This document shows positions 21,335 to 34,350 of a stretch of DNA of 64,000 bases, piece after piece. The notes under the pieces are model-generated. The model saw nothing but the letters and a program-made list of their open reading frames with translations. It was not told the origin of the DNA and made no database searches. The position numbers and the translations under genes are program-made. Source of the stretch: Rhodanobacter sp. PCA2 (lineage in GTDB: Bacteria; Pseudomonadota; Gammaproteobacteria; Xanthomonadales; Rhodanobacteraceae); NCBI RefSeq assembly GCF_013620825.1, contig NZ_NJIC01000033.1:1-64000 (forward strand). Direction: 5' to 3'. Within the stretch, counting starts at the first letter, position 1; each line of letters begins with the position of its first letter.

Positions 21335-22606
21335 TCAGGCCTTGCCGGTCCGGGATGCCGGATGCCGCACCTGTCCCTCCCCGTGCACCACGAAGCGCTC
21401 GACCGTGAGCGACTCCGCGCCCATCGGGCCGTAGGCGTGCAGGCGCGTGGTGGAGATGCCGATCTCGGCGCCCAGGCCCAGCTCGCCGCCGTCGCTGAAG
21501 CGCGAGGACGCGTTGACCATCACCACCGCCGAGCGGATCGCCTGCACGAAGCGTTGCGCGGCGGCTTCGTCGCGGGTGGCGATGACTTCGGTGTGGTCGG
21601 AGCCGTGGCGGCGGATGTGGGCGACGGCCTCGTCCAGGCTGTCCACCACGCGCACGGCGAGGATCAGGTCGAGGAATTCGGCGGCGTAGTCCGCGTCGGT
21701 GGCCGCGTGCATGTCCGGCACCAGCACGCGGCTGGCCGCGTCGCCGCGCAGCTCCACGCCGCGTTCGCGCAAGGCCTGCGCCGCCCGCGGCACGAAGTCG
21801 GCGGCCACGTCGCGGTGCACCAGCAGCGTCTCCAGCGCATTGCACACGCCGGGGCGCGAGGTCTTGCCGTCGATCAGCAGGTGCAGCGCGAGGTCCAGGT
21901 CGGCGGCGCGATCCACGTAGAGATGGCACACGCCCTTGTAGTGCTTGATCACCGGCACGCGCGCATGCTCGGCCACGAAGCGGATCAACCCTTCGCCGCC
22001 GCGTGGGATGGCGAGGTCGACGATGTCGCTGAGCTGCAGCAGCTCGACCATGGTCTCGCGGCGCAGGTCTTCCAGCAGCGCGACCGCCGCTTCCGGCAGG
22101 CCGTGCGCGCGCAAGGCGTCGTGCAATGCGGCGGCGATGGCGGTGTTGGAATGGATCGCCTCGGAACCGCCGCGCAGGATCACCGCGTTGCCGGCCTTGA
22201 GGCACAGCGCCGCGGCATCCGCGGTGACGTTGGGGCGCGCCTCGTAGATCATCGCCACCACGCCCAGCGGTATGCGCACGCGTTCGATCAGCAAGCCGTT
22301 CGGACGCGTCTCGCGCCGGGTCACCAGGCCGACCGGGTCGGGCAACTCCGCCACCTCGCGCAGGGCGGCGGCGATGCCTGCCACGCGCGCCTCATCCAGT
22401 CGCAGGCGATCCAGCATGGCGCCCTGCACGCCTTTTGCTTCGGCCTGCGCCACGTCGCGCGCATTCGCCGCGAGCACGTCGGCGCGGCTCGCTTCCAGCG
22501 CGGCCGCCATGTCGCGCAGCAGCGCGGCCTTGGCGGAACTGTCCAGCGCAGCGATCGCCGGCGCCGCGTCGCGACAGGCCAGTGCCAGGGTGCGGACCTC
22601 GCTCAT
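21335..22606 (-). CDS. proA: Gamma-glutamyl phosphate reductase
   Basis: A 423-residue member of the aldehyde-dehydrogenase superfamily. The catalytic Cys is in [18 protein letters not shown], and [21 protein letters not shown] is the family's cofactor-binding segment. It reduces gamma-glutamyl phosphate to glutamate semialdehyde with NADPH in proline synthesis. Its ATG overlaps the proB stop (ATGA). It is the last gene of the ten-gene arginine-proline operon, which shares the glutamate pool and the chemistry of acyl-phosphate activation and reduction. Confidence 0.96.
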
Positions 22607-23781
22607 GCCTCGATGCCTCCGGGGGTTTCGGCGCCGGCCAGGGTGACCAGGTCGTCGCGGTGCACGATCTCGTGCCCATGGGTGTAGCCCAGCACGGCCT
22701 CGATGTCGCGGCTGTGCCGTCCGGCGAGCCGACGCACCTCGGCCGCGGCGTACTGGCTGAGGCCGCGCGCCACCGGCTTGCCGGCGCCGTCCACGATTTC
22801 CACCAGGTCGCCGCGCTGGAACTCGCCCTGCGCGGCGGCGATGCCGCCCGGCAGCAGCGACGCGCGTCCGCCACCCAGCGCGCGGGCGGCGCCGGCGTCC
22901 ACCTGGATGCAACCGGGCGCGGCCGGCGCATGGCGCAGCCAGTACTTGCGCGCCTGCAGGCGCGTGGCGGCGGCGTCGATCAGCGTGCCGCGCAGGCGCC
23001 CTTCCGCCAGCGCCGCCACGGTCGCCGCATCGCGCCCGCTGAACAGCGCGGTGGGAATGCCCGCGGCGCCGGCCTTGGCCGCGGCCTCCAGCTTGGTGCG
23101 CATGCCGCCGGTGCCCACCGCGCTGCCGCTGCCGCCGGCCATGGCGAGGATCTCCGGCGTGAGCGCGGCGACGTGCGGCAGCGGCTGGGCGGCGGGATCG
23201 TGGCGCGGATCGGCGCTGTACAGCGCGTCGATGTCCGAGGCGATCAGCAGCAGGTCGGCGTCGACCAGGGCGGCGACGATGGCGGCGAGGTTGTCGTTGT
23301 CGCCCAGCTTCAGCTCGTCCACCGCCACGGTGTCGTTCTCGTTCACCACCGGCAGCACATCCAGCGCCAGCAGGCCGCTGAGCGTGGCGCGTGCGTTGAG
23401 ATAGCGGCGGCGGTTGCGCAAGTCGTCGTGGGTGAGCAGCACCTGCGCCACCGGGCGCGTGGACAGCGACTGCCACAGCGCGATCATCGGCGCCTGGCCC
23501 AGCGCCGCCAGCGCCTGCCGCGCAGCGAGATCGCCCGCGGCCGGCGCGTGCTCGCGCAGCAGCGCGCGACCGGCCGCCACCGCGCCCGAGGACACCAGCA
23601 CCACCTGCCGACCCGCGGCATGGCTGGCGACCACGAACGCGGCCAGCGCCGACGCATGGTGGGCGGTGAGGCCGCCGCCGTCGGCCGCCAGCAGGTTGCT
23701 GCCGACCTTGAGCACGGCACGCCGCCAGGGCGGCAGCGGCTGCTCCCGCAAGTGCCCCGCATGTTGCGCAGCCGCCGCCAT
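22603..23781 (-). CDS. proB: Glutamate 5-kinase with PUA domain
   Basis: A 392-residue protein with an amino-acid kinase domain ([51 protein letters not shown]) and a C-terminal PUA domain from about residue 290. It phosphorylates glutamate for proline synthesis and is normally feedback-inhibited by proline. It begins 11 bases after argH and overlaps proA. The first about 20 residues are an extension before the conserved RRAVLKVGS. Confidence 0.96.
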
Positions 23782-23792
23782 GTCAACCCCGT

Positions 23793-25088
23793 TCAGCCGT
23801 CTAGACGGCCAAGCCTAGCATGCAATTCGTGCAGGCGCAGGTCGTCGCCCGCGCCCGGCGACACCCGCTGCACGAGGCTGCCCTCGGGCGTGCGGCCCTG
23901 CCCCGCCGATGCCGCGGCCTCGGCGGCGGCGCGATACGCGTCGCGGAACGGCACGCCGGCCGCGGCCTGTTCGATCGCCACGTCGGTGGCGTACATCGCC
24001 GGCTCGATCGCCGCGCGCATCGCCGGCTCGTTCCACTGCAGGCGCGCCAGCAGGTCGGGCACCAGTTCCAGCGCCATCAGGCCGTGGCGCACGCCGTGGA
24101 AGAGCGAGCCCTTGGAGAACTGCAGGTCGCGCTGGTAGCCGGAAGGCAGCGACAGCAACTGCTCGATCTCGGTACGCGCCGCGGCCACGCTGGCGTAGCT
24201 GGCGCGCAGCAGTTCCACCACGTCGGGGTTGCGCTTGTTCGGCATGATGGAACTGCCGGTGGTGTACTCGGCCGGCAGCTTCACGAAATCGAACTCGGCG
24301 GTGGTGAACAGCGACAGGTCCCAGGCCATGCGGCGCAGGTCCAGCATCGCCGCGCCGATCGCCTCCAGCACCGCCATCTCGTACTTGCCGCGCGAGAGCT
24401 GGGCGTAGATCGGCGACACCTGCATGCGCCCGAAGCCCAGCGCCGCGGTGGTGTGCTCGCGATCCAGCTTCAGGTTCACGCCGTAGCCGGCGGCGGTGCC
24501 GAGCGGATTGGCGTCGACCAGCTCGCGCGTGCCGCGGGCGCGGAACGCATTGTCGATGAAGCCTTCGGCGAAGCCGGCGAACCACATCGCAGTGGACGAC
24601 ACCACCGCACGCTGCAGGTGGGTGTAGCCCGGCAGCGGGATCGCCGGCTGCGCGGCGCGCTGCAGGCACACCCCGGCAATGGCGCGGCAGTGCGTTTCCA
24701 GCGCTTCGAGCTTTTCCTTCAGCCACAGCCGCGTGGCCACCAGGATCTGGTCGTTGCGGCTACGCCCGGTGTGCACGCGGCGGCCGGCATCGCCCAGGCG
24801 TTCGGTGAGGCGCGCCTCGATCGCCGAGTGGCAATCCTCGTAGCGCTCGTCCAGCACGAAATCGCCGCTCCTGAAGTCCACGGCCAGCGCGTCCAGTTCG
24901 CGCTTAAGCGCGACGGCCTCGTCGGCGCTCACCACGCCGATGTTCGCCAGGCCTTCGACGTGCGCCTTGCTGGCGGCGACGTCGTGCAGGAAGAACTCGC
25001 GGTCGAGCACCACGTCGTCGCCGGCGAGGAAACGCATGATCTTCGCGTCGATCTGGATGCCGGATTTTTGCCAGAGGGGTTGGCTCAT
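23793..25088 (-). CDS. argH: Argininosuccinate lyase
   Basis: A 431-residue member of the fumarase/aspartase superfamily. The signature [12 protein letters not shown] contains the flexible catalytic Ser loop, and HTGRSRNDQ and PGYTHLQRA contribute to the active site. It splits argininosuccinate to arginine and fumarate, the last step of arginine synthesis. The ATG at 25088 starts the conserved [10 protein letters not shown] and lies 13 bases after argC. Confidence 0.95.
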
Positions 25089-25101
25089 GGGAATTCCTTG
25101 C

Positions 25102-26058
25102 TCAGTCCAGCGGAATCGCGGTGTACTCGTCCACACCCAGCGCGCGGTTGATGTTCTGCATCGCCTGGGTGGCCGCGCCCTTGAGCAGGTTGTCCAGCGT
25201 CGCCACCACCACCACGCGCTTGCCGTCGGCCGACAGCGCGAAGCCGCCGACCTCGGCATGGTGCCGGTGCGCGATGCGGCTGACCCACGGCGCCTCGTCC
25301 AGCACCGACACCAGCTTTTCGCCGTCGTAGGCGTGGTGGAAGCGCGCCAGCACGTCCTCGCGCTTCAGCGGCTTGGCGAGATAGAGGTTGGTGGTGACGG
25401 TGAGGCCGCGGAAATGCGGCGCCACGTGCGGCATGAACTCCACCGGCAGGCCGAGCTGGAAGCTGGCTTCCTTCTCGTGCGTGTGGCCGGTTAGCGCGTA
25501 CGGCATCAGGTTGTCGCGCAGCTTTTCCGGATCGTTCTTGTCCGAGGGCGTGGTGCCGGCGCCGGAATAGCCGGAGACGCCGAAGCACACCGGCGGCGCG
25601 GCGAGCAGGTCCTTCAGCGGCGCGATGGAGAGTTCCATCGCGGTGGCGTAGCAGCCGGGATTGCTGATGCGCTTCCCGCCGCGCCACTTGCCGCGCGTGA
25701 GTTCGGGCAGGCCGTAATACCAGGCCTGGTCGAAGCGGTAGTCGGCGGACAGGTCGACCACCAGCGTATCGGGCGCCGCCTGGTCGATGGCTTCCACATA
25801 GGGCGCGGCCTTGCCGTTCGGCAGGGCCAGGATCACCACGTCGGCATGCTTGGCCGCCACCGCGGCGGGGTCGAGGCTTTCGTAGCGAAGCTCGCCCTTG
25901 TAGGCATCGCTGTGTCCGCTCACGCGCTGGCCGTCCAGCTCGCGCGAGGAGACAAAGGCCAGTTCCAGCGCCGGATGCGCCGTGATCAGGCGGATCAGTT
26001 CCGCGCCGGTGTGGCCGCGGGCGCCGACGATGCCGATGTTTTTCTTCGCTTGCGTCAT
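25102..26058 (-). CDS. argC: N-acetyl-gamma-glutamyl-phosphate reductase
   Basis: A 318-residue Rossmann-fold enzyme with [16 protein letters not shown] at the N-terminus and the catalytic Cys in [12 protein letters not shown]. It reduces N-acetylglutamyl phosphate to the semialdehyde with NADPH. The ATG at 26058 is chosen over an upstream in-frame TTG at 26073 that overlaps the argAB stop; a GAGAG site precedes it. The gap to argAB is 7 bases, so the two are tightly coupled. This is the short ArgC form typical of Xanthomonadales. Confidence 0.95.
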
Positions 26059-26065
26059 GTCGCTC

Positions 26066-27385
26066 TCATCCAATCAACGTCGGCTGGCGCTGCGCGCAAT
26101 GCGCCACGCAGCGGGCGATGGTGTCGAAGTTGTCGCCCAGGCCGTACCAGAACACCTTCCACTTCGGCTGCTTGAGACAGCCGTCGGATTCGGCGTAATA
26201 GAAGATGTTGACCTGGTTGTTGTGGCGCGAGCGCCAGAACAACTGGGGATTCTCCTCGCGCATCACCTGCCAGACGGCACGGCCCAGGCCTTCGCCCTGC
26301 GCGTCGTCGAGCACGGCGAACTTGTCGAGGTACGGCAGGCCGTCCTCCATCGTGAGGATCATCGCCGCACGATAGTTCTCGCTCACGTAGATGCGGTACG
26401 GCTCGGTGCGCTCGAAGTAATCCGGCACCAGGGTGCGGCCGAAACTGGATTCGATCAGGTCGCGCATCCGCGACCGGTCGATGCCTTCCCACGACTCGAA
26501 GCGCAGCACCTTCTCGCCGCGCCGCACCAGCGTGCCGGAACCCTTGTGGGTGAACAGCTCCTTCGCCAGTTCGGCGGGACGGGTGATCGACACCGACGAG
26601 GCAAGCGGCAGCCCGGCCAGGAGATCGGCGATCTGCTCGATCTTCAGCCGCATGCCGCCGTTGATCCACGGCTGCGCCATCAGGTGCTCGTATTCGGTGC
26701 TGAGGTTGATCGAGTCGATCACCTTGCCCTCGCCGTCGAGCAGGCCGCCGGTGCCGGTGAGGAACACGATCTTGTACGGCTGCAGCACGCGCACCAGCTC
26801 GTTCGCGGCGACGTCGGCGTTGATGTTGAGGATCTGCCCCTCGTCGGTCTCGCCCAGGCTGGCGATCACCGGGATCGAGTTCGCGCGCAGGCCCGCCTCG
26901 ATCGGCGCAAGGTTGATGCTCTCCACCTTGCCGACCATGCCCAGCGCCTCGCGGTCGAGGTAGCTGGCCATGAACACGCCGGAGGCCACCGAGGTGGCGC
27001 GCGTGTCCATCGCCTGCAGCGCCTCGACCAGCTTGAGGTTCTGCTGCTGGAACACGCGGCGCACGATGCCCAGCGCCTTCGGCGAGGTGACGCGCAGGCC
27101 GTTCACCGTCTTCTTCTCGATGCCGGCGGCGGACAGTTCCTCGTCCAGCTGCGGACCCGCGCCGTGCAGCACGATGGGCGTGAGGCCCACCTGCTGCAGG
27201 AAGGTGAGCGAGGAAGCGAGGTCCTGCAGCTCGTCGCGCAGCACCGCGCCGCCGACCTTCACCACGGCGAAGCGCTTGGCGTCCAGCTCGGAGAAGCGCT
27301 TGAGGTATTGCTGGATTTCCTTCGCGCTGCCCATCGCCGAGAGCAGGCGCACGATGGTCTTGCGGGTGTGCTTGTGGGTTTCCAC
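26066..27385 (-). CDS. Bifunctional N-acetylglutamate synthase/kinase (NAGS-K)
   Basis: A 439-residue fusion. The amino-acid kinase domain (about residues 35-280) holds [22 protein letters not shown] and the [10 protein letters not shown] segment. The C-terminal GNAT-like domain (about residues 285-439) holds [12 protein letters not shown] and [13 protein letters not shown], the latter an acetyl-CoA-binding turn. It performs both acetylation of glutamate and phosphorylation of N-acetylglutamate. Enzymes of this architecture are known from Xanthomonas and resemble the vertebrate urea-cycle NAGS. No separate argA or argB is present in the operon. Confidence 0.93.
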
Positions 27386-27405
27386 TGTCTAGTTTTCCTT
27401 TGCGC

Positions 27406-28551
27406 TCATCCGTGGACGCAAGAGTCGTGAGGCGGCGTTCCCTGGCCGCACTTTCCAATGAGGCGAAAAACCACTTCGGCGTAATGCCGCAACTGGTCCA
27501 GCGCCACCCACTCGTCGGCGGTGTGCGCCTGGGCGATGTCGCCGGGGCCGTAGACGAAGGCGATGTAGCCGGCGGCGGAGAACAGCGAGGCCTCGGTCCA
27601 GAAGTCCACCGCGTTGCCCACCGGAATCTCCAGCTCGTCGGCAAGGTCGCGCGCGGCCAGCCGGCGCGCTTCGGCGGTGGCGGTGTCGCCCGCCGGCAGC
27701 GAGGGGCCGCGGAAGGTCTCGGCGAACCCGGCCGGCATCGGCTCGACCAGGGTGCGGAAACGTTCGAGCAAGCCGTCGGGATGCATCGTCGGCAAGGGCC
27801 GCATGCCGAAGCGCACTTCGGCGCTGGGCGCGATCATGTTCGCCTTGATGCCGCCCTCGATGCGGCCGATGTTGAAGCGCAGGCCGGTGAGCCCGCCGAA
27901 GCGTTCGTGCGATTGCGCCGCCACGAAATCCAGCGCCGCATCGCCCCAGCGCACCGCCTGGTGCAGCGCGCTGTCGCTGGGCCGCTGCTCGCCCGAGGCA
28001 TGACCGGCATGGCCGGCGAAACGCATCAGCACCGACTGGATGCCGCGATGGGCCAGCACCGCCTCGCCCCTGGTGGGTTCGGCCACGATCACCGCATCGT
28101 AGGCTGGCTTGTTCGCCAGGAACCCGGCGATGCAGCGCGGATCGTTCGCTTCCTCGTCGCTGGAAAACAGCAGCGCCATGTCGCCGTCGCTGGCGTTCGC
28201 CACGGCGAGCAGCGCCGCCGCCGCGCCCTTGATGTCGCAGGCGCCGAGGCCGATCGCGCGGTCTTCCGTCACGCGCAATTCGTGCGGGCTGGCCGTCCAT
28301 GCCGGCGAGTCCGGCACGGTATCCAGGTGCACGTTGAACAGCAGCTTCGGCTGGCCACGCACCGCGTGCAGGCTTACCGCACCGGCGCCGTGATCGGTCA
28401 CCGTGACGTCGAAGCCGGGGAGCTGTGCGCGGATGTAGTCGAAGATGCCGCCGGTGGTGATCGCCCGCGGCGGATTGCGCGTGTCGAAACCGACCAGCGC
28501 CTCCAGGTGTTCCAGTGTCGCCGCAAGCAACGGGGCCGAATCCCGGCTCAT
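27406..28551 (-). CDS. N-acetylcitrulline deacetylase (ArgE-like, M20 family)
   Basis: A 381-residue M20 metallohydrolase. The metal-binding residues are in FNVHLDTVP (His, Asp), GACDIKGAAAALL (Asp) and FSSDEEAND (Glu pair), with a dimerisation domain in between. In an operon with acetylornithine carbamoyltransferase (30870) the substrate must be N-acetylcitrulline, giving citrulline for argG; that is inference from the known Xanthomonas pathway. The ATG at 28551 shares one base with the argG stop (TGATG). Confidence 0.9.
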   Translation of the reverse strand: MSRDSAPLLAATLEHLEALVGFDTRNPPRAITTGGIFDYIRAQLPGFDVTVTDHGAGAVSLHAVRGQPKLLFNVHLDTVPDSPAWTASPHELRVTEDRAIGLGACDIKGAAAALLAVANASDGDMALLFSSDEEANDPRCIAGFLANKPAYDAVIVAEPTRGEAVLAHRGIQSVLMRFAGHAGHASGEQRPSDSALHQAVRWGDAALDFVAAQSHERFGGLTGLRFNIGRIEGGIKANMIAPSAEVRFGMRPLPTMHPDGLLERFRTLVEPMPAGFAETFRGPSLPAGDTATAEARRLAARDLADELEIPVGNAVDFWTEASLFSAAGYIAFVYGPGDIAQAHTADEWVALDQLRHYAEVVFRLIGKCGQGTPPHDSCVHG

Positions 28552-29741
28552 CACCGATTCACCTCGGCCCACAGCGTGCTGCTCATGCCGAACAACTTGA
28601 TGAAGCCCTCGGCCTCGGCCACGCCCCAGTCGGCCGACTGCGCGTAGGTGGCGCCCTTGGCGTTGAGGATGTGCTTCGACTCGATGGCCACCGCATTCAC
28701 CGTGCCGCCGTTCGTTTCCAGCGTGACTTCACCGTTGACGGTGGACTGGCTGGAGGCGAGGAAGGCTTCCAGGTCGGTCTTCAGCGGATCGTGGAAGAAG
28801 CCCTCGTACACCACTTCCACCCACTTGCGCGCCACGTCGGGCTTGAAGCGGTTCTGTTGCTTGGTCAGCACGGCTTCTTCCAGCGCGCGGTGCGCCGTCA
28901 GCAGCGAGATCAGGCCCGGCGCCTCGAAGATGATGCGGCCCTTGAGGCCGATGGTGGTGTCGCCGGTGTAGAGGCCGCGGCCCACGCCGTAGGGCGCGAA
29001 CAGGGTGTTGAGCTTCGCCAGCAGCTTGTGGCCGGCGAGCTTCTCGCCGTCCAGCGTCACCGCCTCGCCGTTCACGAAACCGATCTTCACCTGCAGCGGC
29101 GCGGACGGCCATTCGGCGCGCGGCTTGCACCACGCGCGCGCGCCCTCGCCCGGCGCCTGCCACTTGTCGATCTCGCCGCCGGACATGGTGACGCCGAGCA
29201 GGTTCTCGTTGATGGTGTAGGCCTGCTGCTTGGCGCGCACGCCGAAGCCGCGCTCTTCCAGGAACTTCTGCTCGTAGGCGCGCGTCTGCGTGTGCTCTTT
29301 CTGGATCTCACGGATCGGCGCCACGATCTCGTAGTCGCCAAGCGACTTCGCCGCGAGGTCGAAGCGCACCTGGTCGTTGCCCATGCCGGTGCAGCCATGC
29401 GCGATGGCGCGCGTGCCGAGCTCGGCGGCACGCTTCAATGCGGCTTCCACGATCAGGTAGCGGTCGGACACCAGCAGCGGGTACTGGCCTTGGTAGCCCT
29501 CGCCCGCCCACACGAAGGGTTTCACGAAACCGTTCCAGATCGCCGGGCCGCCGTCCACCGTGACGTGGCTGGCCACGCCCAGCTCCTTCGCGCGGTTCTC
29601 GATGAAGGCGCGCTCCTCGGCATCCACGCCGCCGGTGTCGGCGAACACGGTGTGCACGGCCCAACCGCGCTCCTTGAGGTAGGGCACGCAGAAACTGGTG
29701 TCGAGGCCGCCGGAGAAGGCGAGGACGATGTCTTTGCTCAT
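28551..29741 (-). CDS. argG: Argininosuccinate synthase
   Basis: A 396-residue N-type ATP pyrophosphatase. The P-loop-like FSGGLDTSF is at residues 9-17, and [14 protein letters not shown] and the C-terminal FIKLFGMSS are conserved. It joins citrulline and aspartate using ATP. It starts 28 bases after the OsmC-like gene and overlaps argE' by one base, so it is part of the long arginine operon. Confidence 0.95.
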
Positions 29742-29769
29742 GGCTTGCGAATCCTGATCGGGGAAGATG

Positions 29770-30243
29770 TCAGTCGGAGGAAACGACGATGCGCGGCTCG
29801 CAGCGCACCGGGAAATTCACGGAGTTGGCGATGAAGCAGGCGTGGTGCGCATCGTCGTGCGCGGCCAGCGCCTGGTCGGGATCGCTGTCGGCGCGGATGA
29901 CGACCACCGGGCGCAGCACGACTTCGGTGAAACGGCCGCCATCGCCCTCGGTGAGCATCGTGCCTTCGGCGCTGTCGTCGTAGGCAACAACCACCACGCC
30001 TGCCACTGTCGCCATGTGCAGGTAGGACAGCATGTGGCAGGTGGAGAGCGCGGCCACCAGCATGTCTTCCGGGTTGTGCCTCGTGGCATCGCCGCGGAAG
30101 GCGGGGTCGGACGAGCCGGCGAGATCCGGCTTGCCGGGTATGCGGATCGCGTGGTTGCGGCTGTAGTTGCGATAGCCGTCCGTGCCGCTGCCGCGGTTGC
30201 CGGTCCATTCCACGTCGACGCGGTAGCGATGCGGGCGACTCAT
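29770..30243 (-). CDS. OsmC family peroxiredoxin-like protein
   Basis: A 157-residue OsmC/Ohr-fold protein. The two redox cysteines are in [10 protein letters not shown] and [11 protein letters not shown], in the usual order. Such proteins reduce organic hydroperoxides through a Cys pair. It overlaps the PaiB-like gene (ATGA) and lies between argF' and argG, so it is transcribed with arginine genes without an obvious metabolic link. Both genes look intact. Confidence 0.87.
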
Positions 30244-30863
30244 GGCTTCGGCGCCTCCTGCAGGGCCATCAGCGCGGCCAGTTCCGCGTCGCCATCGCCA
30301 TCGCGGCGGCGCAGCCCGGCGATCGTGCCGAGGCGGTTGCGCTCGGGGTGGTTCTGGTTGAGCTTGAACTTGCCCTCGATGCGCTCGATCGCGATCTCGA
30401 TGCCCACGATCGCGCGCAGCGATTTCTCGATGTGCTCGGCCGGCGCGTCGGTGATGCGCCAGGGCTGCGGTTCCGTGGCCTCGTGATGGTCGGTGAGACG
30501 CTCGAGCAGGCTGCGCAGCCAGGCAGTGTCCTGGATGGTCTTCAGCCGCCCGTGCACGTGCACCACCGCGTAGTCCCAGGTGGGCACCTCGCGATGCGTC
30601 TCCTGCTTGGTCGGGTACCAGTTCGGGCTGATGTAGCCGTCCGGTCCCTGGAAGATCGCCAGCACCTCGGCGCCATCCAGTCGCACGAGTTCGTTGCCGC
30701 GCGCCACGTGGCCATGCAGCGCGTCGCCCACCAGCTCGAACGGCAGGTGGTTGGCGATCAGGCCATCCGGACCGTTCGCCACCAAGGTGGCGAACGGGCA
30801 GTCGCGGATCAGCCCATGCAGGACCTCGACGCGTGTTTCGGCGAAATGCTTCGGTATGTACAT
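30240..30863 (-). CDS. PaiB-like FMN-binding protein
   Basis: A 207-residue split-barrel flavin-binding protein. The N-terminus MYIPKHF, FATLVANGPDGLIANHLPF, YISPNWYPTK and KFKLNQNHPERNR match the PaiB family point by point. Bacillus PaiB was described as a repressor of sporulation and protease genes; in other bacteria the role is unclear and a flavin-dependent enzyme is possible. It begins 6 bases after argF' and overlaps the OsmC-like gene. Confidence 0.88.
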   Translation of the reverse strand: MYIPKHFAETRVEVLHGLIRDCPFATLVANGPDGLIANHLPFELVGDALHGHVARGNELVRLDGAEVLAIFQGPDGYISPNWYPTKQETHREVPTWDYAVVHVHGRLKTIQDTAWLRSLLERLTDHHEATEPQPWRITDAPAEHIEKSLRAIVGIEIAIERIEGKFKLNQNHPERNRLGTIAGLRRRDGDGDAELAALMALQEAPKP

Positions 30864-30869
30864 GGCGGC

Positions 30870-31877
30870 TCAGCCCTGCCCCGCCAGCGCGGCCATCACC
30901 GCCTTCTGCACGTGCAGGCGGTTCTCGGCCTCGTCGATGGCGATGCAGTACGGCGAGTCCATCACCGCGTCGGTGGCCTTGACGTTGCGGCGCAGCGGCA
31001 GGCAGTGGCTGAACAGGCCGTGGTTGGTCAGCGCCATCTTGGCCTCGTCCACGATGAAGTGCCTGTGCGCGTCGCGGATGGGCTTCTCCTGCTCCCACTT
31101 GCCGAAGTACGGCAGCGCACCCCAGCTCTTGGCGTAGACCACGTCGGCGCCGCTGTAGGCTTCCTCGATGTCGTGGCTGACCTTGAGCGAGCCACCGTTC
31201 TGCGCGGCGTTCAGGCGGCCGAACTCCATGTAGCGTTCGTCCAGCACGTACTCCGGCGTGGGGCACAGCAGGGTCACGTCCATGCCCATCTTCGTCGCGA
31301 TCAGCAGCGCGGAGTTGGCCACCGCGGTGTTGAGCGGCTTGGGGTGGTAGGTCCAGGTGAGCACGTACTTCTTCTTCGTGAGGTCGCCCAGGTGCTCGCG
31401 CAGCGCCAGCGCGTGCGCCAGCTCCTGACAGGGATGGGTGATCGTCTCCATGTTGATCACCGGCACCGTGGCGTACTTCGCGAAGGCCTTGACGACCTTG
31501 TCCTGGCGATCCACCGACCAGTCCTGGAATTTCGGGAAGGCGCGCACGCAGATCAGATCCGCGTAGCGGCTGAGCACGCGCGCCACCTCGGCGATGTGCT
31601 CCTCGGTATCGCCGTCCATCACCGTGCCCGGCTCGAATTCGATCGGCCACGCGTCCTTGCCCGGCGCCAGCACCACCGCGTGGCCGCCCAGCTGGAACGC
31701 GCCCAGCTCGAAGCTGGTGCGGGTGCGCATCGAGGGATTGAAGAACATGAGCGCCACCGACTTGCCGGCCAGCTGCGTGCCCGCGGGCGAGCGCTTGAAC
31801 GCGGCGGCCTGTTCCAGCAGCGCGTCGATCTCGGCGCGGCTCCAGTCCTGGGTGGTGAGGAAGTGGCGGATGGTCAT
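30870..31877 (-). CDS. N-acetylornithine carbamoyltransferase
   Basis: A 335-residue carbamoyltransferase. The carbamoyl-phosphate motif SMRTRTS is at residues 49-55, HPCQEL follows in the middle, and HCLPLRRN lies near the end. Glu92 is present; in Xanthomonas AOTCase this residue marks acetylornithine specificity over ornithine. The product is N-acetylcitrulline, which fits the ArgE-like deacetylase downstream. It is the first gene of the arginine-proline operon, with a GAGGGC ribosome site, and lies 108 bases after the attenuator hairpin. Often called argF'. Confidence 0.93.
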   Translation of the reverse strand: MTIRHFLTTQDWSRAEIDALLEQAAAFKRSPAGTQLAGKSVALMFFNPSMRTRTSFELGAFQLGGHAVVLAPGKDAWPIEFEPGTVMDGDTEEHIAEVARVLSRYADLICVRAFPKFQDWSVDRQDKVVKAFAKYATVPVINMETITHPCQELAHALALREHLGDLTKKKYVLTWTYHPKPLNTAVANSALLIATKMGMDVTLLCPTPEYVLDERYMEFGRLNAAQNGGSLKVSHDIEEAYSGADVVYAKSWGALPYFGKWEQEKPIRDAHRHFIVDEAKMALTNHGLFSHCLPLRRNVKATDAVMDSPYCIAIDEAENRLHVQKAVMAALAGQG

Positions 31878-31975
31878 GAGTTGGATCGCCCTCGATGAAA
31901 TCGCTCTGGATGAATGGCCCGGCCAAGGATGACCGGCTTGTCTTGCCGTTCGCGGACGGATCCGCCTGTGGTGAA

Positions 31976-32013
31976 AACAAAAAACAAAAACCCGGCGCGG
32001 TGGCCGGGTTTTT
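31976..32013 (-). terminator. Attenuator terminator upstream of argF'
   Basis: Read on the minus strand, AAAAACCCGGC (32013-32003) pairs with GCCGGGTTTTT (31996-31986) around a 6-base loop. A long U tract (TTTTTGTTTTTTG) follows. It is a strong intrinsic terminator placed before, not after, the arginine operon and downstream of a small Arg-containing ORF. This is the layout of a transcription attenuator. The T-run on the plus strand is only five bases. Confidence 0.85.
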
Positions 32014-32044
32014 CGTCGATACGTATGCAGCAGCGCGCGACAGC

Positions 32045-32149
32045 CTACCCGGCCGGATGTCCGTCCAGCGGTCGACGCGCACGCGAAGTCATGCCGGCGG
32101 CCATGCGGGCGCTGGTCAGGACATTGGCGGTATAGACGGCTGTGGACAT
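32045..32149 (-). CDS. Putative arginine leader peptide of the argF' operon
   Basis: A 34-codon ORF (MSTAVYTANV start) with a GGAAC ribosome site, ending in TAG 32 bases before the terminator hairpin. Arginines are at codons 15, 23, 25 and 26. The last three are CGT, CGT and CGA, forms little used in this GC-rich genome, where CGC dominates. Its last codons and stop contain GGCCGGGT (32054-32047), complementary to the 5' arm of the terminator. A ribosome stalled at codons 23-26 would leave that segment free, while one at the stop would cover it. Coding is inferred from this geometry; no homologue is known to me. Confidence 0.7.
   Translation of the reverse strand: MSTAVYTANVLTSARMAAGMTSRARRPLDGHPAG
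32047..32054 (-). promoter_or_regulatory. Antiterminator strand of the arginine attenuator
   Basis: GGCCGGGT on the minus strand is perfectly complementary over 8 bases to ACCCGGCC at 32009-32002, the 5' arm of the terminator. Pairing the two would prevent the terminator from forming. The segment overlaps the leader-peptide stop codon, so a terminating ribosome would mask it. Confidence 0.65.
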
Positions 32150-32174
32150 GAGGGTTCCGGTCGGGCGAGGCGCC

Positions 32175-32203
32175 ATCATGACGGGATTTTCGCTGCCATG
32201 CAA
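32175..32203 (-). promoter_or_regulatory. Candidate sigma-70 promoter of the arginine operon
   Basis: A -35-like TTGCAT (32203-32198) is followed by a 17-base spacer and a -10-like CATGAT (32180-32175) on the minus strand, ending 25 bases before the leader-peptide ATG. Spacing is ideal and both hexamers match partly. The call is by eye. Confidence 0.4.
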
Positions 32204-32257
32204 CATGCCCTGCAGAGGCCCGGAAACCCGGACCCGGTCAGGGCTGATGGCACGTCC

Positions 32258-32803
32258 TCAGTCGGCGGGAGACACGCTCACCCGCACGCGCAGGCGCTCG
32301 CCAGGGTCGTAGCTCAGGCGGGCCTCCCAGACCTCGCCGCGATAGCGGTATTCCACGTCGTAGCCCACGATCTGGCGCTGCTCGCTGACCGCGCTGACCT
32401 GGCGGCAGTTGGTCACCGTCTGCTCGACCTGGCTGCCGCCGCGGTTCGCGGCCACCTGGCCGCCCACCGCACCGCCGGCCACGGCGCCCACCGCGGTGCT
32501 GAGCGTGCGGCCGTTGCCGTGCCCCACCGTGCTGCCCAGCACGCCGCCCACGACGGCGCCCAGGATGGAACCGGCCGTGGTGTTGCCCGGACGCTGCTGG
32601 ACCACGGTCTGGTCCCGGCATTCCTGGCGCGGCACCTCGGTGCGGGTGACGCCGTACACGGGATCGACGCGCAGCACGTCGGCCCAGCCATAGTGGGCAT
32701 TGTCGTCCTGACCGGGATTCTGGTTCGAATAGCGCGCGTCCTGCGCTTGGGCGCCGGTGGCGGCCAGGGCCAGTACCAGGGCGACGGCGAAAAACTTGTA
32801 CAT
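32258..32803 (-). CDS. Glycine-zipper 2TM domain exported protein
   Basis: A 181-residue protein with a signal peptide (cleavage after GAQAQ, about residue 21). A Gly-zipper membrane-associated segment (GSILGAVVGGVLGSTVG, then AVGAVAGGAVGGQVAA, about residues 75-120) follows, and a soluble C-terminal part has a Cys in TNCRQV and DVEYRYRGE. The family includes outer-membrane lipoprotein-like and surface-antigen proteins; this one lacks a lipobox Cys. It is probably an envelope stability protein. It lies upstream of the arginine leader on the same strand without a clear terminator between them. Confidence 0.85.
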   Translation of the reverse strand: MYKFFAVALVLALAATGAQAQDARYSNQNPGQDDNAHYGWADVLRVDPVYGVTRTEVPRQECRDQTVVQQRPGNTTAGSILGAVVGGVLGSTVGHGNGRTLSTAVGAVAGGAVGGQVAANRGGSQVEQTVTNCRQVSAVSEQRQIVGYDVEYRYRGEVWEARLSYDPGERLRVRVSVSPAD

Positions 32804-32976
32804 CAAACGGACTCCGGTGCGGTGTTCGGGCGCAGCTTCGGCGCATGGCCGATTGCAGCAAATCGAGGCTGAATAGCGGCTTAGAATCCCCCTGCTGCGA
32901 CATCGGGCCTCCACGTCGCTTACACCTTGTTAAGATGCGCGGCTAGCCTGCGTCCGCCCCGGTCCGGATACCCACG

Positions 32977-34350
32977 ATGCCGATTTCGCTCTACAACAGC
33001 CTGACCCGCCGCACCGAACCGTTCGCTCCGCTGGATCCGCAGCGGGTGACGATGTACGTATGCGGCCCCACCGTCTACAACTACGTGCATATCGGCAACG
33101 CGCGCGGCCCGGTGGTGTTCGACGTGCTGGCCAAGCTGCTGCGCCGGCATTACCCGCAGCTGGTGTACGCCCGCAACATCACCGACGTGGACGACAAGAT
33201 CAACGCCGCCGCGCTGGAACAGGGCGTGGACATCGAGGCGATCACGGGCCGGTTCACCGACGCCTATCGCGAGGACATGACGCGGCTCGGCATCGCGCCG
33301 CCCGACGTGGAGCCCCGCGCCACCGGGCATATCGCCCCGATCGTCGCGATGATCGGGCGCCTGATCGCCGACGGCCACGCCTATGCGGCGGAAGGCCACG
33401 TGCTGTTCGACGTGGGCTCGTTCCCCGCCTACGGCCAGCTCTCCGGCCGCGACACCGAAGAACTGATCGCCGGCGCCCGCGTGGAGGTGGCCCCGTACAA
33501 GAAGTCCCCCGGCGACTTCGTGCTGTGGAAGCCCTCCACGCCCGAGCTGCCGGGCTGGGACAGCCCCTGGGGCCGCGGCCGGCCCGGCTGGCACATCGAG
33601 TGCTCCGCGATGGCCGAGAAACACCTGGGCGAGACCATCGACATCCACGCCGGCGGCAACGACCTGCTGTTCCCGCACCACGAGAACGAGATCGCCCAGT
33701 CCACCTGCGCCCATGGCGGCAAGACCTTCGCGCGCTGGTGGATGCACAACGGCATGCTCACCTTCGACGGCCGCAAGATGTCCAAGTCGCTGGGCAACGT
33801 GCTGCAGCTGCACGAGATGCTCAAGCGCCACCCCGCCGAAGCGCTGCGCCTGCGCCTGATGAGCGGCCACTACCGCCAGCCGCTGGACTGGTCCGACGCC
33901 GCGATCGCGCAGTCGGTGAGCACGCTGGACGGCTGGTACCGCGTGCTGCGCGACCTGGCCGGGGTGGCGGTGGACACCGCGTCGCTGCCGGTGCCGGAAA
34001 CGGTCGAGGCCGCCTTGTGCGACGACCTCAACACACCGCAGGCGCTGGCCGAGCTGGCCGTGTTGGCGGATGCCGCGCGCGTGCAGGGCACGCCCGCCGC
34101 CAAGGCCGCCCTACTCGGCGGCGGCGCCCTGCTCGGCCTGCTCCAGCAGGACCCTGAGGCATGGTTCAAGCAGGCTGGCGGCAGCGAGGTCGATGCAGAC
34201 ACGGTGGAGGCGATGCTGGAGGAACGCCGTGCGGCCCGCGCCGCCCGCGATTTCGCCCGCGCCGATACGATCCGCGCCGAGCTTGCCGCGATGGGCGTGG
34301 AAATCGAGGATGGCCCGCAGGGCACGCGCTGGAGCGTCGCCAAGACCTGA
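32977..34350 (+). CDS. cysS: Cysteinyl-tRNA synthetase
   Basis: A 457-residue class I synthetase. Zn ligands include Cys29 (YVCGPTVY); HIGNARG is the HIGH motif, GWHIECSAM and [10 protein letters not shown] are conserved, and KMSKS is at residues 267-271. It charges tRNA-Cys. The C-terminal helical part is normal length. It starts 173 bases after the divergent glycine-zipper gene and is followed by sufE 47 bases downstream. Confidence 0.97.

Follow-up and report, generated by a model that had tools for sequence, protein, structure and literature searches.

The arginine biosynthesis genes of Rhodanobacter sp. PCA2 are preceded by a short arginine-containing reading frame and a terminator, which raises the question whether this leader decides on the transcription of the genes behind it. 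The window, i.e., the whole stretch of 64,000 nucleotides analyzed here (contig NZ_NJIC01000033.1, positions 1 to 64,000 of the forward strand), harbors this leader at positions 31,976 to 32,203. A preliminary description made from the letters of the window had recognized the geometry of classical amino-acid attenuation and proposed that arginine is the signal. This geometry is supported by the comparison with relatives, namely by the spacing, the pairing controls and the arginine clusters. Judged from sequence comparison, the leader is very probably a ribosome-mediated transcription attenuator, which senses arginine via charged tRNA-Arg.

Read on the minus strand from 32203 to 31976, the locus displays a promoter-like pair of elements, an open reading frame (ORF) of 34 codons, the segment GGCCGGGT over the stop codon and finally an intrinsic terminator whose tail is rich in U, in this order. 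The ORF (32045-32149) encodes the peptide MSTAVYTANVLTSARMAAGMTSRARRPLDGHPAG and contains arginine at codons 15, 23, 25, and 26 (CGC, CGT, CGT, and CGA). The last three are the putative control codons R23, R25, and R26 (32072-32083, with Ala24 in between), lying within the conserved peptide core SARMAAGMTSRARRP (codons 13-27, 32069-32113). GGCCGGGT (32054-32047), the candidate 5' strand of an antiterminator, is perfectly complementary over 8 nucleotides to ACCCGGCC (32009-32002), which would be the 3' strand of the antiterminator and is at the same time the 5' arm of the terminator. The terminator hairpin of 11 bp (31986-32013) is followed by GTTTTTTGTTTT and ends 108 nucleotides before the start of argF' (30870-31877, minus strand), the first structural gene, for which NCBIfam assigns an N-acetylornithine carbamoyltransferase (NF003384, 611 bits). 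Positions, codons, pairing, terminator and downstream gene are thus as the preliminary description had given them.

Taken by itself, the sequence of the window is not compelling. The hairpin is the sole terminator-like site between 31500 and 33000, where shuffled sequences give a mean of 0.7, so that this one site alone is not above chance, and folding of the 228-nucleotide stretch as a single sequence was uninformative (z of -1.48 against shuffles). Four CGN codons among 34 would likewise be unremarkable in a GC-rich genome. Therefore, the weight rests on the relatives, and the comparison with these places the predicted element far above chance.

The relatives belong to the order Lysobacterales/Xanthomonadales, whose families carry the arbitrary labels f1 to f12 here. 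Using argF' as bait and leaving the leader out of the search, loci were collected from 41 genomes, from a scan of a collection that kept 80 named contigs, and from 17 and 30 genomes, one of which is among the 41. The 80 contigs (L031-L110) have organism names instead of family labels and were counted with f1-f4, since their argF' is 85-96% identical and each contains the leader core. A further set (L111-L203) was found via the core pattern and is biased for the core. Hence, the counts 113/113 and 90/92 given below as well as the substitution rates are restricted to loci fetched by argF', while the codon table, the set of 206 leaders and the pairing, folding and promoter counts include pattern-found loci. 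Three loci are cut by contig ends, two of which (L207 and L210) lie outside the 113, whereas L218 is counted within the 37 loci of the other families; two paralogues (L251 and L252) were excluded.

Among the f1-f4 loci fetched by argF', all 113 that include the upstream DNA contain M[TA]SRARR, the leader core, in frame before this gene. These represent 99 distinct sequences of 160 nucleotides, because the two collections overlap (L031-L110 and L001-L030 contain the same genomes under two names). At DNA level the core pattern occurs in 161 of the 299 genomes of the order, with one site each and none for the reversed control, and it is found in none of 226 genomes of the class outside the order. 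Within the order it matches 161 of the 167 f1-f4 genomes and none of the 132 f5-f12 genomes; the six misses are explained by four variant cores (L027, L204, L205, and L206) and by the contig ends of L207 and L210. One core-bearing contig (L110) is titled Candidatus Eremiobacteraeota and encodes a Rhodanobacteraceae-like argF' (86% identity), so that it is probably mislabeled or derived from a mixed metagenome bin.

By its substitution rates, the core of the leader ORF is under selection as a protein. In 49 thinned leaders, the ten codons AAGMTSRARR have a ratio of nonsynonymous to synonymous substitution rates (dN/dS) of 0.058 and the longer segment Ala14-Pro27 (fourteen codons) one of 0.185, compared to 0.66 and 1.24 in the flanking codons upstream and downstream, respectively. 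According to the f1-f4 codon table, the residues G, M, T, S, and A hardly change, if at all, while the codons for G, T, and A differ at their third base. The core arginine pair is followed by proline in 160 of 172 distinct f1-f4 leaders (pattern-selected loci are included here, the pattern itself lacks this codon), and 61 of the 172 contain an additional arginine codon four codons after the core, i.e., closer to the antiterminator.

Also the pairing is conserved on sequence level. Using lenient criteria without a shuffle control, a terminator-like hairpin was observed in 206/206 f1-f4 leaders, starting 40-79 nucleotides after the last arginine codon of the core. The stretch with the best complementarity to its 5' arm starts 20-21 nucleotides after the first base of this codon in 186 of the 206 leaders, and in 190 of them it is at least 6 bp long and located at the stop codon. 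A stricter view is obtained at the offset +21, which is common to all loci and was not picked locus by locus. Here, 280 of 378 cells are paired in 54 diverse leaders, compared to 99-179 at eight other offsets. Shuffling the partners among these leaders reduced the Watson-Crick pairs from 260 to 240.9 ± 3.9 (none of 2000 shuffles reached the observed value), and 32 of the 54 are fully paired against a shuffle mean of 25.7 and maximum of 31. At the third pair, 21 of the 54 leaders have C-G and 14 have T-A, and compensatory types include GCCGGGT/ACCCGGC and GCTGGGT/ACCCAGC as well as, in f9, GCCAGGTT/AACCTGGC. The ORF and the pairing, for which the preliminary description had asked whether relatives share them, are thus both conserved, the latter with compensatory changes. 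If a ribosome is placed on the arginine codons during folding, the antiterminator is predicted in 204 of 206 f1-f4 leaders, and if it is placed at the stop codon, the terminator is predicted in all 206. These folds are a consistency check and no independent proof, because the antiterminator strand was picked for its pairing. A simple RNAalifold prediction on the 54 aligned leaders, which yielded no more than two small hairpins plus a portion of the terminator, was not used.

Beyond these four families, a terminator and an ORF precede argF' in 33 of 37 loci of f5 and f7-f11. By eye, their leader peptides look unrelated, yet they hold arginine clusters, e.g., RRNRRR (L213 of f9), RRRRRR (L230), RRRR (L219, L220, and L223), LRRRRR (L224), RRLRRP (L233-L235), RRTRRP (L222), and RRESSRRRR (L246). 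The maximum number of arginines per eight codons, summed over the 33 loci, is 143 compared to 47.4 ± 6.7 in dinucleotide shuffles (z of 14.3). Arginine is the most enriched of the 20 amino acids, followed by methionine (z of 7.7) and asparagine (z of 6.3); these other residues rise as well, to a smaller extent than arginine, because real ORFs exist there. As leader frame the ORF richest in arginine was taken, which favors arginine counts at single loci, while the shuffles behind the z of 14.3 were handled identically. Taken singly, 23 of the 33 loci reach the 5% level of their shuffles. All 33 contain at least three arginines in eight codons, which is partly so by construction, and 25 contain at least four. 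The antiterminator helix reaches the 5% level of shuffles in 21 of the 33 loci. Thus, the putative element extends beyond Xanthomonadaceae and Rhodanobacteraceae.

Two side observations concern these leaders. Proline follows the arginine run at 18 of 72 run-ends of f5-f11, ten of them with CGA before the proline, which is reminiscent of the RARRP core of f1-f4; this recurrence could stem from a common ancestor or from a slow Arg-Pro step with a function. Furthermore, in L222 of f8 the leader stretch is present twice in tandem about 180 nucleotides apart upstream of argF', with an N in the first copy, which suggests a duplication or an assembly artefact.

The choice of arginine codons is selective. 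Within the f5-f11 clusters CGC, CGA, CGT, CGG, AGA, and AGG are used 67, 50, 28, 6, 3, and 0 times, compared to 187, 36, 79, 103, 26, and 36 times in the argF' sequence available for the same loci. CGA is enriched in the clusters (p = 7e-13), CGG and AGR are depleted (p = 1.6e-14), and CGC, CGU, and CGA account for 94% of the cluster codons. Similarly, CGA serves as the last core arginine codon (R26) in 90 of 92 distinct f1-f4 leaders, compared to 1.5% CGA in argF', and CGG or AGR was found at just one of 276 places of R23, R25, and R26. In the window's own genome, ARAGORN identified one tRNA-Arg gene each with the anticodons ACG, CCG, TCT, and CCT and none with TCG among 48 tRNA-match stretches, one of which is untyped, in an assembly of 62 contigs. 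The ACG tRNA-Arg contains inosine at its wobble position, and CGA is its slow codon. Since no TCG tRNA-Arg gene was found, the single ACG tRNA must read CGU, CGC, and CGA. The control region therefore appears to listen to one tRNA-Arg isoacceptor, the one with the anticodon ACG.

The distribution of the arginine repressor ArgR (PF02863) adds to this picture. ArgR was found in 8 of the 299 sampled genomes of the order, all belonging to f12, where it was detected in 8 of 9 genomes, the ninth being 77% complete; a control set of 14 named genomes, E. coli among them, gave ArgR in 8. In four f12 genomes the gene lies about 1.4 kb from an argF-like gene, and the four f12 argF loci examined contain no leader. 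By eye, argF follows an argD-like gene at these loci. Leader and ArgR distributions thus look nearly complementary in the sampled genomes. Separately, in six of the nine f9 genomes searched (G043, G058, G065, G072, G085, and G092) neither an argF' relative at E ≤ 1e-40 nor ArgR was detected; arginine auxotrophy is one possible reason, a different enzyme another.

For transcription to be controlled by this leader, it has to start upstream of it. A candidate promoter consists of the -35 element TTGCAT (32198-32203) and the -10 element CATGAT (32175-32180), both on the minus strand and separated by 17 nucleotides, and the predicted transcription start is at about 32167, as judged from the 5' end of an RNA mapped in Xanthomonas (see below). 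The pattern TTG-N16-18-nAnnnT with at least six of 12 consensus matches is present in 169 of 177 distinct f1-f4 leaders, compared to 23.5 expected from shuffles, and the spacer is 17 nucleotides in 159 of the 169. A stricter generic promoter scan of 31500-33000 reported no promoter. A start downstream of 31986, which would have placed leader and terminator outside the transcript, is disfavored by this predicted promoter and by the X. oryzae 5' end, whose inferred placement is near the leader AUG.

This RNA is the sRNA-Xoo5 of X. oryzae. Liang et al. (2011, PMC3039613) place it on the + strand, flanked by PXO_00354 and PXO_00353, and the protein table of that paper names the latter N-acetylornithine carbamoyltransferase. 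As described there, rapid amplification of cDNA ends (RACE) and cloning yielded an RNA of 124 nucleotides with a mapped 5' end, and Northern blots displayed bands of about 130 and 100 nucleotides in early growth and later only the short one. In the main text of the paper, neither "arginine" nor "argF" was found. The corresponding Rfam family, RF02242 (Xoo5, a Xanthomonadaceae small RNA), scores 25.7 bits on the leader of the window, which is below the gathering cut-off of 50, and has no match in the window's own genome. Above the cut-off it matches 10 of 12 f2 loci and none of the eight other loci given, and 11 of 12 f2 genomes and none of six others. Full-length matches (1-124) span the leader ORF upstream of argF' in Xanthomonadaceae, and the model stops before the terminator. 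On this comparison the "Xoo5 sRNA" is the putative attenuator leader in most Xanthomonadaceae tested, and the window contains the same locus with diverged sequence. If position 1 of RF02242 equals the mapped end, the X. oryzae 5' end would fall two bases before the leader AUG, and the Xanthomonas leader would therefore be nearly leaderless. Starting at this distance from the chosen ATG, the predicted terminated RNA has 156 nucleotides in six of eight related Xanthomonadaceae loci; the remaining two give 159 and 174 (X. oryzae is not among the eight, and 174 counts from an earlier ATG). The same study reports, for its sRNA-Xoo1 mutant, argininosuccinate synthase and N-acetylornithine carbamoyltransferase among the down-regulated protein spots, together with enzymes of the leucine pathway (PMC3039613). 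Xoo1, for which an earlier annotation gave a riboswitch, might likewise be a leader.

Known riboswitches and T-boxes of Rfam were considered as well and rejected. A cmscan search of 31500-32700 gave three matches only, all below threshold (bits/cut-off): rnk_pseudo (34.6/55), which is taken to reflect terminator-like composition, the Xoo5 match mentioned above, and Twister-sister (19/34). Four leader peptides matched no Pfam family at E ≤ 10 and the peptide of the window no NCBIfam family, in searches whose filters very short peptides may escape.

Based on these parts, the following mechanism is proposed. RNA polymerase would start just upstream of the leader ORF, at the promoter predicted in the window. 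A shortage of arginyl-tRNA of the ACG (inosine) isoacceptor would stall the ribosome at codons 23-26, the CGU/CGA cluster, with a footprint ending just before GGCCGGGT. This segment could then pair with ACCCGGCC and block the terminator, so that the polymerase would continue into argF' and the arg genes. If arginine is plentiful, the ribosome would reach the stop codon and cover GGCCGGGT, and the terminator hairpin would form. Termination would release a short RNA, which in Xanthomonas would be the "Xoo5 sRNA". The parts and their spacing, the compensatory pairing, the enrichment and choice of arginine codons, the selection on the peptide and the near-complementarity with ArgR are displayed by the sequences compared; from here we infer that the ribosome stalls, that the RNA switches and in which direction the genes respond.

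Several observations weigh against attenuation by arginine codons or limit its reach. The conservation of G19, M20, T21, and S22 on protein level in four families exceeds what the sensing of codons needs. In f5-f11, ten of the 33 loci taken singly miss the 5% level for the arginine cluster, of which L211, L229, L237, L240, L242, L249, and L250 have shuffle levels of 0.10-0.30 and L223, L232, and L238 lie just above 0.05, and 12 of the 33 miss this level for the antiterminator helix. No leader was found at argF' in the single f6 locus and in three of the ten loci of f10, and these four genomes lack ArgR as well. The antiterminator strand pairs with sequence located upstream, as in the 1:2 structure of classical attenuators, in just 54 of 206 predicted folds; a conserved 1:2 pause or anti-antiterminator hairpin was looked for in the 206 leaders and not established. 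Finally, the X. oryzae RNA is about 30 nucleotides shorter than termination at the hairpin predicts, for which processing, loss during cloning or another way of ending are possible reasons.

The first of these points leads to the rival that deserves most attention, namely a leader in which the nascent peptide ..AAGMTSRARRP arrests the ribosome from within the exit tunnel, possibly together with a small ligand such as arginine or a pathway intermediate, as known for SpeFL, TnaC, and the fungal arginine attenuator peptide. Here, arginine would act as part of the peptide and not as a codon. The low dN/dS of the ten core codons, the residues kept despite varying third bases, and the proline after the arginines in f1-f4 and at some run-ends of f5-f11 are what such a leader would display. 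On the contrary, the f5-f11 peptides have no obvious common residues beyond arginine clusters, often followed by proline, when compared by eye, and the codon is selected rather than just the residue, as seen from CGA at R26 and the avoidance of CGG and AGR. Furthermore, a stall induced by arginine would presumably turn a biosynthetic operon on in excess arginine. Arrest by the peptide alone is therefore considered unlikely. A combination of both, in Rhodanobacteraceae, Xanthomonadaceae, and two further families, is possible though doubtful: AAGMTSRARRP might serve as an arrest or slow-down motif that, together with the arginine (CGA) codon and the following proline, pauses the ribosome where the antiterminator is freed, and the element might have originated as most of the order lost ArgR.

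Two further explanations dispense with attenuation altogether. Rfam, which files RF02242 under "Gene; sRNA", and likewise Liang et al. (2011) treat the RNA as a stand-alone small RNA acting in trans, in agreement with the discrete RNA seen on Northern blots and cloned from X. oryzae. This is very improbable for an RNA that is encoded on the same strand as argF' and directly upstream of it, that contains an ORF under selection on protein level, and whose anatomy is similar in other families without a Xoo5 match; the authors themselves list it among five small RNAs that are likely Hfq-independent and whose functions are to be elucidated (PMC3039613). The simplest explanation would be the ordinary terminator of an upstream gene next to a chance ORF. 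A gene on the same strand (32914-32258) indeed precedes the leader, and the arginine codons and the single terminator of the window are, as stated above, no more than expected. Nevertheless, the conserved promoter-like site lies between this gene and the leader, and neither the conservation and dN/dS of the ORF nor the spacing and compensatory pairing of the antiterminator fit a chance arrangement, which makes this explanation scarcely credible. Attenuation via arginine codons thus remains the preferred reading.

The upstream gene (32258-32914, minus strand) encodes a glycine-zipper protein (NF008437, Pfam PF05433); by eye, a reading frame resembling it also lies before argF' in the f6 locus L221. 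Downstream of argF', a block of genes on the minus strand (22603-30863) probably forms an operon with it, as judged from order and spacing. It comprises an FMN_bind_2 protein (30863-30240, domain match), a further reading frame, argG (29741-28551), argE (28572-27406), argB (27385-26066), an argC-like gene with semialdehyde dehydrogenase domains (26073-25102), an argH-like gene (Lyase_1, 25259-23793), and a proB-like gene for an amino-acid kinase with PUA domain (23781-22603), where the names argC, argH, and proB are our reading of the Pfam domains. The argB product matches the long acetylglutamate kinase model PRK04531 with 813 bits over residues 2-439, while the plain kinase model TIGR00761 spans just residues 39-259, the PRK04531 form being the longer one.

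If the proposed attenuator is correct, arginine joins the amino acids sensed by ribosome-mediated attenuation. It would also offer a way in which arginine genes may be controlled in the greater part of an order that has no ArgR, and it would assign a function to RF02242. Due to the use of codons of one tRNA-Arg, with CGA favored, sensing of a single isoacceptor by attenuators becomes directly testable. The conservation of the leader peptide further raises the question whether the nascent chain helps the ribosome to stall.

Ribosome-mediated attenuators are known for the trp, his, leu, ilv, thr, and phe operons. They share with the leader described here an ORF in which codons for the end product are clustered, a mutually exclusive antiterminator and terminator, a stop codon located on the antiterminator, and the first biosynthetic gene downstream. 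In contrast to these, the leader of the window would sense arginine, its core residues beyond the control codons are conserved in four families, and a pause hairpin is not clearly conserved. The preliminary description knew of no arginine case in Xanthomonadales. This stands insofar as literature searches covering titles and the openings of abstracts returned no arginine attenuator of this kind before an arginine biosynthesis operon, and insofar as "arginine" and "argF" are absent from the main text of Naville and Gautheret (2010, PMC2965389), whose supplementary tables may contain an unremarked prediction. It has to be amended since the RNA itself was already known: Xoo5 occupies the same locus in Xanthomonadaceae and is filed as a small RNA without function.

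Other leaders come close in single features. In the speF leader of Salmonella, pausing of the ribosome at two consecutive arginine codons of orf34 under low arginine alters downstream expression (PMC6386406), which resembles the leader of the window in the short upstream ORF and the pausing at arginine codons. It differs in controlling an ornithine decarboxylase instead of an arginine biosynthesis operon and in acting via mRNA structure, RNase G and Rho, the authors having found no Rho-independent terminator (PMC6386406). The peptide of the window has no Pfam hit and thus none to the DUF2618 family named in that paper. For the carAB leader of Pseudomonas, whose gene is shared by arginine and pyrimidine synthesis, a leader peptide and attenuation have been proposed, as reported second-hand in PMC4997734; there, the attenuation is ascribed to pyrimidines, the gene is another one, and a cluster of arginine codons is not described. 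The uORFC-8-2 upstream of cysS in Rhodobacterales, proposed from comparison alone, combines a leader ORF containing tandem codons of the sensed amino acid with a terminator, and differs in the amino acid (cysteine), the gene (a tRNA synthetase) and the lineage (PMC8632094). Compared to all of these, the kind of element is already known; new would be the amino acid sensed, its spread over most of the sampled order and the reassignment of an Rfam "sRNA".
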